NCBI RefSeq assembly: GCF_026914305.1
Contig: NZ_CP113866.1
Location: 523,501 to 587,500, forward strand
Reading direction: 5' to 3'
From: Caldicellulosiruptor acetigenus
GTDB lineage: Bacteria; Bacillota; Thermoanaerobacteria; Caldicellulosiruptorales; Caldicellulosiruptoraceae
Length of the DNA stretch: 64,000 bases
The translations under genes and the position numbers were made by a program. How positions within the stretch are numbered: position 1 is the stretch's first letter; each line of letters begins with the position of its first letter. The notes under the pieces are model-generated. The model did no database searches, was not told the origin of the DNA, and saw only the letters and a list, made by a program, of their open reading frames with translations. Below, in pieces: positions 30,621 through 37,603 of the stretch.

Positions 30621-30660
30621 AAGGCTGCCGTTTTCAAATGGCAGCCTTGCTTGTTTTTTT
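30621..30660 (+). terminator. terminator after araD
   Basis: The stem AAGGCTGCC/GGCAGCCTT is followed by GCTTG and a run of T. A smaller GTTGTG/CACAAC stem precedes it (30603-30617). Confidence 0.88.
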
Positions 30661-32017
30661 ACAGTCCAAATATTCTACTTACAACCTCTTTTAACTCTTC
30701 ATCGCTTATAGATGTATTTCTTCCATTTTCATATTGATTGTCTACCCACTCTTTGACCTTTTGAACTCTTGGGTCTTTTTTATCAACCTGGATGTCAATG
30801 CCGCTATCTTTGAAGTACCTGTTTATCCAGATTACAATTCCTGCAATGCCTGAGTATGCATCTATAATCACCTTAGGAGGCCTTCCCAGAATCTTTCCTG
30901 TATCAAATATATTGTAAATCTCCTCATCTTTCATAAGCCCATCTGCATGAATTCCAGCCCGTGTTGCGTTAAAGTTCTCACCAACAAAAGGCGTCATTGG
31001 AGGAATCTCATACCCGATTTCTTTTTTGAAATAATCAGCAATCTCAGATATTACAGCAACGTTCATGCCGTCTGCTGACCCTCTTATCTGAATATATTCC
31101 ATCACCATTGCCTCTAAGGGAGTGTTGCCAGTCCGCTCACCTATTCCCAAAAGTGATGTGTTTACCATTGAAGCACCGTATAGCCATGCCATTGTTGAGT
31201 TTATTACTGCCTTGTAAAAATCGTTGTGACCGTGCCACTCAAGCCACTCAGATGGCACTTCACCGTAGTTCACAATGCCATAGATTATCTGTGGAACGCT
31301 TCTTGGCAGAGCAACACCAGGGATGGGTGAGCCAAGCCCCAGCGTGTCACAAGCTCTGATTTTCACAGGCATGTTTGCCTGTTTTGAAAGTTTCATAAGC
31401 TCGTTGATAAATGGCAGAACAAACCCATAAAAGTCTGCACGTGTGATGTCTTCAAAATGGCATCTTGGAATTACTCCTGCCTCTAAAGCTGCCGACACAA
31501 TCTCTAAGTACTGCTTCATTGCCTGACTTCTTGTCATCCTTAGTTTTTTGAAAATGTGATAGTCAGAACATGAGACAAGTATTCCTGTTTCCTTGATACC
31601 AAGGCTCTTTACAATCTCAAAGTCCTCTTTTTTTGCACGAATCCAAGCAGTCACTTTTGGAAAATCATAGCCTTTTTCTAAACACTTTAAAACTGCTTCC
31701 TTGTCCTGCTTTGAGTAGACAAAGAACTCTGTGTGAAGAATAACACCGCTTCCATTGTCAAGCTCATGCAAGTAGTCATAAATCCTACAGATTTGCTCAA
31801 CAGTGTAGGGTGAGCGTGACTGTTGGCCGTCTCTGAAGGTTGTGTCTGTGATGTAAAGCCGCTCAGGAACATTCATTGGCACAATTCTGTGGTTAAAAAC
31901 AAGCCTTGGTACCTCATTGTAAGGATAGATGTTCCTAAAAAGATTTGGCTCCTCAATGTCCCTGAACTGATACTCAATCTCGAGAATGTGAGTCTTTTGA
32001 TTGAACTTAACATTCAT
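30659..32017 (-). CDS. DRE-TIM metallolyase, probable (Re)-citrate synthase or homocitrate-synthase-like
   Basis: 452 residues, pyruvate-carboxylase/LeuA superfamily TIM barrel. ITDTTFRDGQQSRSPYT is the catalytic DxxxRDG motif; the metal-binding HxH is WHGHNDFYK; GIGERTGNTPLEAMVM is the family acyl-CoA-site motif. The C-terminal LeuA allosteric domain is missing and an N-terminal extension of about 50 residues is present, the layout of the (Re)-citrate synthase of Clostridium kluyveri rather than of isopropylmalate synthase. Assignment as acetyl-CoA + oxaloacetate to citrate is inference. It would feed 2-oxoglutarate/glutamate synthesis. Preceded by a c-di-AMP riboswitch; SD AGGGAGG lies 11 nt from the ATG. 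Confidence 0.72.
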   Translation of the reverse strand: MNVKFNQKTHILEIEYQFRDIEEPNLFRNIYPYNEVPRLVFNHRIVPMNVPERLYITDTTFRDGQQSRSPYTVEQICRIYDYLHELDNGSGVILHTEFFVYSKQDKEAVLKCLEKGYDFPKVTAWIRAKKEDFEIVKSLGIKETGILVSCSDYHIFKKLRMTRSQAMKQYLEIVSAALEAGVIPRCHFEDITRADFYGFVLPFINELMKLSKQANMPVKIRACDTLGLGSPIPGVALPRSVPQIIYGIVNYGEVPSEWLEWHGHNDFYKAVINSTMAWLYGASMVNTSLLGIGERTGNTPLEAMVMEYIQIRGSADGMNVAVISEIADYFKKEIGYEIPPMTPFVGENFNATRAGIHADGLMKDEEIYNIFDTGKILGRPPKVIIDAYSGIAGIVIWINRYFKDSGIDIQVDKKDPRVQKVKEWVDNQYENGRNTSISDEELKEVVSRIFGL

Positions 32018-32037
32018 AAAACAATAACCTCCCTTTC

Positions 32038-32170
32038 AAAGCTTCGGGGGTTAGCTGACGGGTTCGGGCAGAAAGGGACATTTGCCCTACAAGGCAAAAA
32101 TGCCTTGATTCACCCCAAAAAAGTGGGTCCCCCCTATCCTGTGCTTTTTTTTACACAGGAATTCAGCTTT
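32038..32170 (-). ncRNA. ydaO/yuaA-type c-di-AMP riboswitch
   Basis: Read on the - strand the leader carries the conserved ydaO blocks in order: GGGGGGACCCAC, TTGGGGTGAATC, a variable GGCA/TGCC hairpin, GTAGGG and then CCCGAACCCGTCAGCTAAC. Closing stem P1 is AAAGCT (32170-32165) with AGCTTT (32043-32038). These blocks match B. subtilis ydaO and the Thermoanaerobacter aptamer as I remember them. The aptamer ends right at the SD of the citrate-synthase-like gene with no terminator between, so control is probably translational. The family normally turns genes off when c-di-AMP binds. Confidence 0.92.
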
Positions 32171-32200
32171 TTTTAATTTTATTTTTTTATTATGATTTTT

Positions 32201-32229
32201 ATCATACCAGAAAAGCGGCAGTTTGGCAA
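32201..32229 (-). promoter_or_regulatory. promoter of the riboswitch-controlled gene
   Basis: On the - strand TTGCCA (32229-32224), 17 nt, extended -10 TGG-TATGAT (32206-32201). It starts only 11 bp after the stop codon of the DUF362 gene, making the citrate-synthase-like gene its own unit with an mRNA leader of about 175 nt. Confidence 0.75.
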
Positions 32230-32239
32230 GGAAGAATGT

Positions 32240-33361
32240 CTATACCTTCACAAGCTCATACTCCAAACTTCCAAGTCCAATCTCTTGAGCATGCTTTAGT
32301 GCAACTCTCCAGTCCGTGTCAGGATGAATGCTCTTGAACCTATCAATCTTACCATCAACCTCTATGTGTTTTGCCTTTTCAAATACAGAGCCAGCTGGTG
32401 TGAACGTAGAGTTATTTACAAGGTCAACACATGCCTTGTCAAGCGCAACAGGGTCAAATGACGCTGCAATACCAATGTCTGGTGCAACAGGGATATCGTT
32501 GTGTGACCAGCAGTCACAGTCAGGTGAAATATTCATGACAAAATTTATGTGAAAATGAGGCTTATCCTTTAAAACTGCATACGCATACTCAGCAATCTTC
32601 TCGCTTGCGATTGACGCTGCCTCATCCCAGTTGACTGTTGCTGCACCGAACTGGCACACAGCAACGCACTGACCACATCCAACACACTTTTCATAGTCAA
32701 TAACTGCTTTTTTCTTCTCATTCAAAGTTATAGCAAGCTGCGCACAGCTTTTGACGCACATTCCACACCCGACACATTTTGAAACCTTTATAACAGGCTT
32801 TGAGGATGAGTGCATAAAAAGCTTTCCGCCGCGAGAACCAGAACCCATTCCAATGTTTTTGATAGCACCACCAAACCCTGTCATCTCATGACCTTTAAAG
32901 TGGTTCATTGAGATTATAATATCAGCATCTGCAATGGCAGATCCAATCTTTGCTTTTTGTGTATGCTTGAGGTTCACTTCAATCTCTCTGTACTCTGTTC
33001 CTTTCAGACCATCTGCGATGATTACATGACAGCCAAGCACAAGAGGGTTAAATCCATTTTCATACGCAGCTTCTAAGTGGTCTAAAGCGTTGCTTCTTCT
33101 TCCTGTGTAAAGTGTGTTTGCATCTGTGACAAACGGTTTCCCGCCAAGGCTTTTGACGAGTTTTACAATCCTTGCAACGTAGTTTGGTCTTATATACGCA
33201 AGGTTTCCAGGTTCTCCAAAGTGTACCTTGATAGCAACAAACTTGTTTTTAAAATCGATTGTTTCAATCCCTGCCTTTTTCACAAGGTTTTCAAGCTTAT
33301 CAAGCATATTATACCCTGGTTTGGTTTTAAAGTCTGTGAAATACACCTTTGATTTTGCCAT
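32240..33361 (-). CDS. DUF362 iron-sulfur protein with 2x[4Fe-4S] ferredoxin domain
   Basis: 373 residues. DUF362 body at both ends (VHFGEPGNLAYIRPNY, SMNHFKGHEMTGFGGAIKNIGMG) with a ferredoxin insert near residues 195-240 holding two clusters: CVGCGMCVKSCAQ and CVGCGQCVAVCQF. C-terminal CDCWSHNDIP and ASFDPVALDKACVDL are also family-typical. No signal peptide, so cytosolic. The function of DUF362 is unknown; a redox or metallo-enzyme role is likely. Single gene with SD GGAG upstream and no obvious terminator. Confidence 0.88.
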   Translation of the reverse strand: MAKSKVYFTDFKTKPGYNMLDKLENLVKKAGIETIDFKNKFVAIKVHFGEPGNLAYIRPNYVARIVKLVKSLGGKPFVTDANTLYTGRRSNALDHLEAAYENGFNPLVLGCHVIIADGLKGTEYREIEVNLKHTQKAKIGSAIADADIIISMNHFKGHEMTGFGGAIKNIGMGSGSRGGKLFMHSSSKPVIKVSKCVGCGMCVKSCAQLAITLNEKKKAVIDYEKCVGCGQCVAVCQFGAATVNWDEAASIASEKIAEYAYAVLKDKPHFHINFVMNISPDCDCWSHNDIPVAPDIGIAASFDPVALDKACVDLVNNSTFTPAGSVFEKAKHIEVDGKIDRFKSIHPDTDWRVALKHAQEIGLGSLEYELVKV

Positions 33362-36274: not shown

Positions 36275-36318
36275 GGGCTGCTAAACCCTCTTAATTTTGA
36301 GCAGCCCGTGTGCTTTTT
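36275..36318. terminator. bidirectional terminator after the pab operon
   Basis: The stem GGGCTGCT/AGCAGCCC (36275-36282, 36300-36307) is followed by a T-run on + and preceded by an A-rich tract giving T on -. It serves both convergent operons. Confidence 0.78.
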
Positions 36319-37603
36319 AATTTTGTGCCGATTCAGTATTTTCAATCTTTGCCTTACTGAGTGCATCTTCAACTGCCATGATAATACCATAAGACGTTCT
36401 TGTCGCACCAGAGATAATATCAACATTTGTTGACTGAGACTCTATTATTTCCTTAGGAATAATCTCAAATGGCAGCTGTGCAAAGCTTGGTGTTTCGTGA
36501 TGAGAGATTATTTGAATATCTGTAATTTTATCGTTTTTGATTGTAACCTGAACAACAAGCCCTGGTCTGTATCCAAAACCTTCGCCTGTATATGTTCCAT
36601 CTTTGTAAATTTTAGAGGCAGATTTTTGTGTATTGAATTCCTGAGAATTTTGTGTAGCAAGACTTGTATTTTCTGATTCAGTTTGATTTTCTTGAAAATC
36701 CAAGTTATTTTCAGATTGAGTACTCTGCGAAAAAGTTGTTGAAGGTTTTAAAGATGTAATTTTTTGATTCAATGGTTCAATAGAAGAAGCAGTAGCAAAA
36801 AAGCTTGCAACTGAAAACACGCCTGCAATGGCTGCGGCGGAAGTATACCGTGGGTCTATTTTGGTCTTTGCGATGTTCAGCTGAATATTAAATCTTGGAC
36901 AGCTTTCAACGCATTTTACACACGCTATGCACTCACCTTTGTAATTTTCAACATTATTCATATCTATTCCCATTGGGCACGTGCTATTACATATACTGCA
37001 CTTTCCACAGTTTTTGTCTGCCTTTTTGACAAATAAAAGCTTTGCTCTGGAGATTATATTGAAGATTGCACCAAGTGGGCAGAAGTATCTGCAATGGGCT
37101 CTGTTTACAAAAAGGCTCAATATTAATACAAACACGAAAAATACAAAGCTTGGCAAGTATGTCTTTATATCAAAATTCAAAGAAAGCAGGTTGTCAAAGG
37201 AATCCCAGGGGTCAGCATAAAAAGTTTTTCCAAACGTCCATACCATTACAATAAGGTATATAAGCACAAGGTATTTTATCATTTTAAGAAGGTCATCTAA
37301 TTTTTTAGGCATTTCAAATGTCTTTTTAAAGATTTTCTTACCCAAAAAATATATCCATTCCAAAATGCTTCCAAATGCACATACCCAGCCGCAAAAAAAC
37401 CTTCCCAAAAAGATTGTGATAATCAGGGTTACAATAAGCATTATAAAGTTCTGGTTAAATTGAAAGTTTTCCTTGCCCAAGAAGGCTAAATACAGGCTTT
37501 TTATTTGAGAAAGAAGCATTGCAAAAGAAAGAGGAAAGAAAATAAATGAAATAAGCTGGATAAAAAACCTTAGTATTTGTGTTGGCATTACCTTTTTTGT
37601 CAC
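36317..37603 (-). CDS. membrane ferredoxin/FMN-binding protein (NosR/RnfG-like)
   Basis: 428 residues. Four to five membrane helices (about 10-30, 48-68, 108-128, 150-170) with a NapH/NosR-type FFCGWVCAFG motif and CRYFCPLGA, then a two-cluster ferredoxin domain (CGKCSICNSTCP, CIACVKCVESCP), another hydrophobic segment near 255-275, a Ser/Gln-rich linker and a C-terminal FMN-binding domain ending in SGATRTS. The Thr of SGAT is the site of covalent FMN attachment by ApbE, encoded in the overlapping gene. It should carry electrons across the membrane to or from an outside acceptor. Confidence 0.88.
   Translation of the reverse strand: MTKKVMPTQILRFFIQLISFIFFPLSFAMLLSQIKSLYLAFLGKENFQFNQNFIMLIVTLIITIFLGRFFCGWVCAFGSILEWIYFLGKKIFKKTFEMPKKLDDLLKMIKYLVLIYLIVMVWTFGKTFYADPWDSFDNLLSLNFDIKTYLPSFVFFVFVLILSLFVNRAHCRYFCPLGAIFNIISRAKLLFVKKADKNCGKCSICNSTCPMGIDMNNVENYKGECIACVKCVESCPRFNIQLNIAKTKIDPRYTSAAAIAGVFSVASFFATASSIEPLNQKITSLKPSTTFSQSTQSENNLDFQENQTESENTSLATQNSQEFNTQKSASKIYKDGTYTGEGFGYRPGLVVQVTIKNDKITDIQIISHHETPSFAQLPFEIIPKEIIESQSTNVDIISGATRTSYGIIMAVEDALSKAKIENTESAQN

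Follow-up and report, generated by a model that had tools for sequence, protein, structure and literature searches.

A putative c-di-AMP OFF switch on a predicted second Re-type citrate synthase gene of Caldicellulosiruptor acetigenus

The window, which is the whole 64,000-nucleotide stretch of Caldicellulosiruptor acetigenus DNA analyzed here, carries a complete c-di-AMP riboswitch aptamer immediately ahead of a gene for a DRE-TIM enzyme of the Re-citrate synthase type. The locus comprises the following elements, given in window positions:

30659–32017, minus strand: Re-citrate-synthase-type DRE-TIM enzyme of 452 amino acids, the riboswitch-controlled paralogue (PF00682, E = 4.6e-33, and family context)
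32024–32178, minus strand: c-di-AMP riboswitch aptamer (RF00379; ydaO/yuaA), located by cmscan
32026–32052, minus strand: possible ligand-free hairpin AACC-CCC / GGG-A-GGUU that would mask the Shine-Dalgarno sequence (minimum-energy fold without the pseudoknot)
32028–32033, minus strand: Shine-Dalgarno sequence GGGAGG, 10 nt upstream of the ATG, read from the sequence
32030–32037, minus strand: 3′ strand of the pseudoknot, GAAAGGGA, overlapping the Shine-Dalgarno sequence
32071–32078, minus strand: 5′ strand of the pseudoknot, TCCCTTTC, pairing with 32037–32030 and covarying with it
32201–32229, minus strand: promoter-like site TTGCCA-17-TATGAT with TG ahead of the second hexamer (10/12 in a consensus scan)

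Just upstream of the riboswitch lies a gene for a protein with a DUF362 and two 4Fe-4S domains (32240–33361, minus strand), and a NapH-like ferredoxin membrane protein fused with an FMN-binding domain is encoded at 36317–37603 on the same strand.

A preliminary description of this DNA had placed a c-di-AMP riboswitch with conserved ydaO/yuaA blocks in the synthase leader, between 32038 and 32170, and that assignment is borne out. The Rfam search that it proposed returned a significant RF00379 match from 32178 to 32024 on the minus strand, a little longer than first delimited, which scores 98.7 bits (E = 3.5e-22; gathering score, 38), covers the full model (positions 1–134 of 134), and ends 6 nt before the synthase open reading frame, whose start is at 32017 on the same strand. 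The block quoted in that description, CCCGAACCCGTCAGCTAAC, is found at 32068–32050 on the minus strand. Across 31 aligned aptamers of the bacterial family, the RF00379 core is invariant or nearly so. The promoter-like hexamers and their spacing recur identically at five other loci (L028, L029, L030, L033, and L036), with a TTGCAA variant at L038; the consensus scan yielded two sites where 0.7 were expected from shuffled sequences. The genome encodes one diadenylate cyclase (PF02457).

The pseudoknot is formed by 7–8 Watson-Crick pairs in every leader of the bacterial family, and its two strands covary among leaders (CCCTTTC:GAAAGGG, CCTTCTT:AAGAAGG, TCCTTTC:GAAAGGA, CTCTTTC:GAAAGAG, and ACCTTCC:GGAAGGT). 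Under a strict test, 68% of distinct leaders reach at least 6 pairs with their own partner strand versus 28% with swapped partners; a looser test that admitted G-U pairs and wide windows gave no discrimination, and the strict version was used instead. Four of the six Shine-Dalgarno bases fall within the 3′ strand. No transcription terminator was found between the aptamer and the synthase gene, where the space is too short. Because no terminator separates the two and the Shine-Dalgarno sequence is part of the pseudoknot, control of the synthase is probably translational, and since the pseudoknot strand that overlaps the Shine-Dalgarno sequence also covaries, ligand binding should hide the ribosome site.

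Three RF00379 matches occur in the genome, and three in each of the 13 genomes of the order. Those of C. acetigenus precede the window synthase, an SH3/NlpC-P60 wall hydrolase, and eam, which is identified as a glutamate 2,3-aminomutase gene by TIGR04368 (678.8 bits, cut-off 650). When the eam product is aligned to 2a5h, Lys and Asn stand where lysine 2,3-aminomutase has the two Asp residues that presumably bind the far amino group of its substrate. The eam leader contains a terminator that overlaps a stretch complementary to the aptamer 3′ strand (TTCCGAGGTTA with TAACCTCGGAA). The preliminary description suggested looking for the same pairing of riboswitch and synthase in related genomes, and the 11 further genomes of the genus all have RF00379 in the corresponding position, in one case with an insertion between it and the gene; the pairing is thus present in 12 of 12, at 5–8 nt from the open reading frame in 11. 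Each of these 12 genomes has one RF00379 aptamer on eam and one on the synthase, the latter assigned by contig position in G007, the genome with the insertion. There, a TnpB-type element (L091, 4581–6059, minus strand) separates the aptamer from the synthase start, so that switch and gene have been uncoupled naturally. In the sister genus (G012), one riboswitch, equipped with a terminator, heads an operon of eam and the synthase gene in that order; the two genes are 37 bp apart, and the synthase is 83% identical to that of the window. This operon ties the synthase more strongly than any other single observation to β-glutamate, a static compatible solute in methanogens that is found in a few bacteria (PMC1224877). 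A pattern search upstream of ~98 relatives outside the bacterial family, mostly over 1.5–4 kb and in some cases less, found no convincing riboswitch core, and the pairing of RF00379 with a Re-type synthase therefore appears to be lineage-specific.

The synthase retains all invariant residues of its family, including the DTTFRDGQQ, EDITRAD, and EWHGHND motifs; the DRE and HxH motifs of the DRE-TIM fold are represented by its TTFRDGQQ and EWHGHND stretches. TTFRDGQQ, EDITRAD, and EWHGHND are kept with few changes in relatives across the phylum that are 47–69% identical to it outside the bacterial family. Among the matches listed, aconitase is encoded within 4 kb in 33 of 80 relatives' loci in named genomes and isocitrate dehydrogenase within the same distance in 37 plus 9 of 80, a neighborhood like the one in which C. 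thermocellum encodes its Re-citrate synthase (PMC6115520); neither gene lies beside the window synthase itself. A PF00285 citrate synthase is absent from the genome, while the same search was positive in 13 of 14 control genomes. Because its relatives adjoin aconitase and isocitrate dehydrogenase genes and the genome has no PF00285 enzyme, the window synthase is, by context, a predicted member of the Re-citrate synthase family. No NCBIfam cut-off was reached, with best scores of 160–164 bits against cut-offs of at least 460, and by these curated models, with scores so far below their cut-offs, the synthase is not a LeuA, CimA, or NifV (isopropylmalate, citramalate, or homocitrate synthase).

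Two related enzymes are encoded elsewhere in the genome. One is a 72%-identical paralogue (L006, C1:2213381–2214727) of a kind that each of the 13 genomes possesses; a pattern search of L006/L063 revealed no riboswitch on it. The third relative (L008) is shorter, 43% identical, and situated inside a nitrogenase cluster, where it may act as a homocitrate synthase for the cofactor; the surrounding region (L012, 737–18736; C1:2196001–2216000) holds nifH-, nifD-, nifK-, nifE-, and nifB-like genes, aconitase, and an ammonium transporter in addition to L008 and L006. A quick tree places the riboswitch-type copies, 13 in number, in one group and the 13 paralogues in another. The former are further set apart by Leu94-His95, present in 13 of 13 and in no other relative examined, at a position where nearly all relatives, including the nearest outside the family (L095 and L096), carry an Arg-Gln or Lys-Gln pair. 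The RQ-[STC]-EFF stretch of nearly all relatives, a criterion noted in the present analysis and without published standing, accordingly reads LH-T-EFF in all 13. In alignments to solved synthases, the change falls on or beside the second-strand IEAG stretch. On this basis, the substrate or kinetics of the riboswitch-type synthases may differ from those of their relatives, and the change of RQ to LH in all riboswitch-type copies is the main ground for caution over the exact activity of the window synthase. The preliminary description of the gene as citrate-synthase-like is thus upheld for the family, by the neighbors of its relatives and the lack of PF00285, while the catalytic identity is uncertain owing to the changed residue pair.

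Of 47 eam genes tested across the phylum, 28 have an RF00379 match no more than 700 nt upstream. In 93 riboswitch targets, a sample drawn from the best-scoring riboswitches rather than at random, the classes counted were aminomutases by Pfam (16), NlpC/P60 proteins (12), octopine-dehydrogenase-like proteins (10), glycine-betaine binding proteins (6), TrkH (4), KUP-type K+ transporters (3), and PF00285 citrate synthases (3). The view that this riboswitch class acts chiefly on genes for K+ transport and the cell wall is therefore incomplete, eam-type aminomutases being the commonest of these sampled targets. The octopine/nopaline-dehydrogenase-like targets, also among the commonest (L229, L232, L242, L250, L251, L252, L255, L256, L261, and L313), possibly yield an opine-type osmolyte, and at L233 (G070) a gene that is asparagine-synthetase-like by sequence is a further target in amino-acid metabolism.

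The three PF00285 targets belong to two genomes of genus g11 (G039 and G173) and to one of another family (G067), in which the aptamer adjoins the citrate synthase gene upstream on the same strand (L246). Within genus g11, RF00379 lies ~110 nt upstream of a PF00285 gene in 6 of 18 genomes examined (L318–L323) and 0.84–0.99 kb upstream on the same strand in 8 further genomes of the 18 (L324, L326–L331, and L333); an antisense open reading frame intervenes in the 2 of those 8 loci that were read. Terminator-like stems are present in both PF00285 leaders scanned. At L318, the aptamer segment GTCAGCTAA can, as read by eye, pair with TTAGCTGAC just ahead of the terminator, which would be an OFF arrangement. 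Because PF00285 and PF00682 are unrelated families, the placement of both kinds of citrate synthase under RF00379 points to convergence on one step.

From these features, we infer ligand binding, the direction of control, the enzyme product, and the osmolyte role of the synthase. The reading that we consider probable is that c-di-AMP acts through this riboswitch leader to shut down, in all likelihood at the stage of translation, a second Re-type citrate synthase feeding 2-oxoglutarate and glutamate for osmolytes. With adequate turgor and K+, c-di-AMP would be high and the aptamer closed, and the helix between 32078–32071 and 32037–32030 would sequester most of the Shine-Dalgarno sequence. A drop in c-di-AMP would expose this sequence and allow the synthase to be translated. 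The eam gene would be co-expressed with the synthase by means of its own c-di-AMP riboswitch and terminator, and glutamate 2,3-aminomutase would convert glutamate to the inert osmolyte β-glutamate. The preliminary description had c-di-AMP controlling carbon entry to 2-oxoglutarate and glutamate. The link to glutamate-type osmolytes stands, on the evidence of the G012 operon, the frequency of eam as a target, and the Si-type citrate synthases under RF00379 in two families; the synthase is not, however, the sole enzyme that could serve carbon entry. Given a riboswitch-free paralogue that is 72% identical to it, the switch is more likely to control a dedicated second enzyme. The recurrence of the RF00379 pairing on an unrelated citrate synthase in two other lineages suggests that glutamate-type osmolyte synthesis is tied to osmotic state in these bacteria.

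The opposite direction of control has to be weighed against this OFF reading. In an ON switch, AACCCCC would pair with the Shine-Dalgarno sequence in the ligand-free leader, and c-di-AMP would pull that strand into the aptamer, upon which the enzyme would rise. The unconstrained minimum-energy fold does contain a hairpin of this kind, composed of AACCCCC from the aptamer 3′ strand and GGGAGGUU; in the 11 leaders folded at 37 °C, the G residues of the Shine-Dalgarno sequence have an unpaired fraction of ~0–40%. This hairpin, which hides the site strongly at 37 °C, is however weaker and hides it partly when folded at 70 °C, which we take to be nearer the growth temperature expected for the group, and the pseudoknot that holds the Shine-Dalgarno sequence belongs to the conserved, covarying aptamer. 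Terminator-like stems following the aptamer, the layout of an OFF switch, are found in the leaders of eam, of the G012 eam-synthase operon, and of the PF00285 genes scanned. The OFF direction is favored for two reasons, namely that terminator region and aptamer 3′ strand are complementary in the eam leader of C. acetigenus itself, and that published accounts treat c-di-AMP riboswitches as OFF switches, with one of them acting at translation (PMC9960051). An ON switch is accordingly judged improbable.

Somewhat less improbable, though still doubtful, is a genuine riboswitch on a different 2-oxo-acid synthase, in which the RQ to LH change would have redirected the enzyme toward, for example, homocitrate or a branched osmolyte precursor. 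The restriction of LH to the 13 riboswitch-type enzymes and its location near IEAG favor this possibility, as does the ubiquitous paralogue, which could be the housekeeping citrate synthase; the retention of all invariant residues of the family, the joining of the gene to eam in G012, which calls for glutamate supply, and the unrelated true citrate synthases that lie under RF00379 elsewhere argue against it. Loss of the c-di-AMP response in a relic or variant aptamer is very hard to credit. It finds a point in its favor in the TnpB-type element between aptamer and gene in G007, and against it are a full-length score well over the cut-off, the near-invariant core in 31 aptamers, the 12/12 conservation in the genus, and the presence of a diadenylate cyclase.

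c-di-AMP is known to regulate the transport of K+ and of osmolytes, enzymes of the wall, and, via proteins, pyruvate carboxylase, and glutamate is the counter-ion of K+. Direct control of citrate synthase by RNA would carry the c-di-AMP signal to the committed step for the glutamate carbon skeleton and make citrate synthase a genuine member of the c-di-AMP osmolyte regulon. It would also supply a reason for two Re-type enzymes per genome and a handle on osmotolerance in these apparent cellulose-degrading thermophiles. That RF00379 precedes citrate synthases of two unrelated kinds in separate lineages makes this a testable general rule. We lean, by a small measure, toward the broader view that c-di-AMP gates the citrate synthase step at the RNA level, that this was reached independently at least twice (in the Re-type and, in two families, in PF00285), that the riboswitch-bound copy is specialized for β-glutamate, and that the pseudoknot serves as a ribosome-site mask. 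In the open-access literature, a scope outside which the target tables of Nelson 2013 fall, no paper was found that joins a c-di-AMP riboswitch and citrate synthase, and the main text of a Caldicellulosiruptor bescii osmotolerance study (PMC7071700) does not mention the synthase or eam genes.

Compared with the RF00379 family at large, the window leader has a complete aptamer with its core blocks and pseudoknot, and the eam and NlpC/P60 targets of the same genome match the known osmotic and wall regulon; the differences are the citrate-synthase-type target, the absence of a terminator, and the placement of the Shine-Dalgarno sequence inside the aptamer pseudoknot. A mechanistic likeness is found in the nlpC riboswitch of Corynebacterium glutamicum, which also lacks a terminator and is OFF at translation by reporter tests (PMC9960051). 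It differs in the gene controlled and in the proposed element, a CTCC stretch there and a pseudoknot strand over the Shine-Dalgarno sequence here. Na+ and c-di-AMP riboswitches are known on osmolyte aminomutase genes, and in the tandem arrangement on a Dehalobacter lysine 2,3-aminomutase gene c-di-AMP likewise shuts off the synthesis of an osmolyte precursor (PMC9337991). That system governs the last osmolyte step, whereas the present one would govern the carbon-supplying citrate synthase step. The Re-citrate synthases of C. kluyveri, whose enzyme is experimentally proven, and C. thermocellum are similarly of the DRE-TIM type, with aconitase and isocitrate dehydrogenase beside relatives, whereas the enzyme described here is a riboswitch-controlled paralogue with LH in place of RQ and a predicted activity (PMC6115520, PMC12016533). 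Finally, c-di-AMP also bears on oxaloacetate and glutamate supply where it or DarB regulates pyruvate carboxylase, at the level of protein in that case (PMC8822347) and putatively at the level of RNA for the window synthase.
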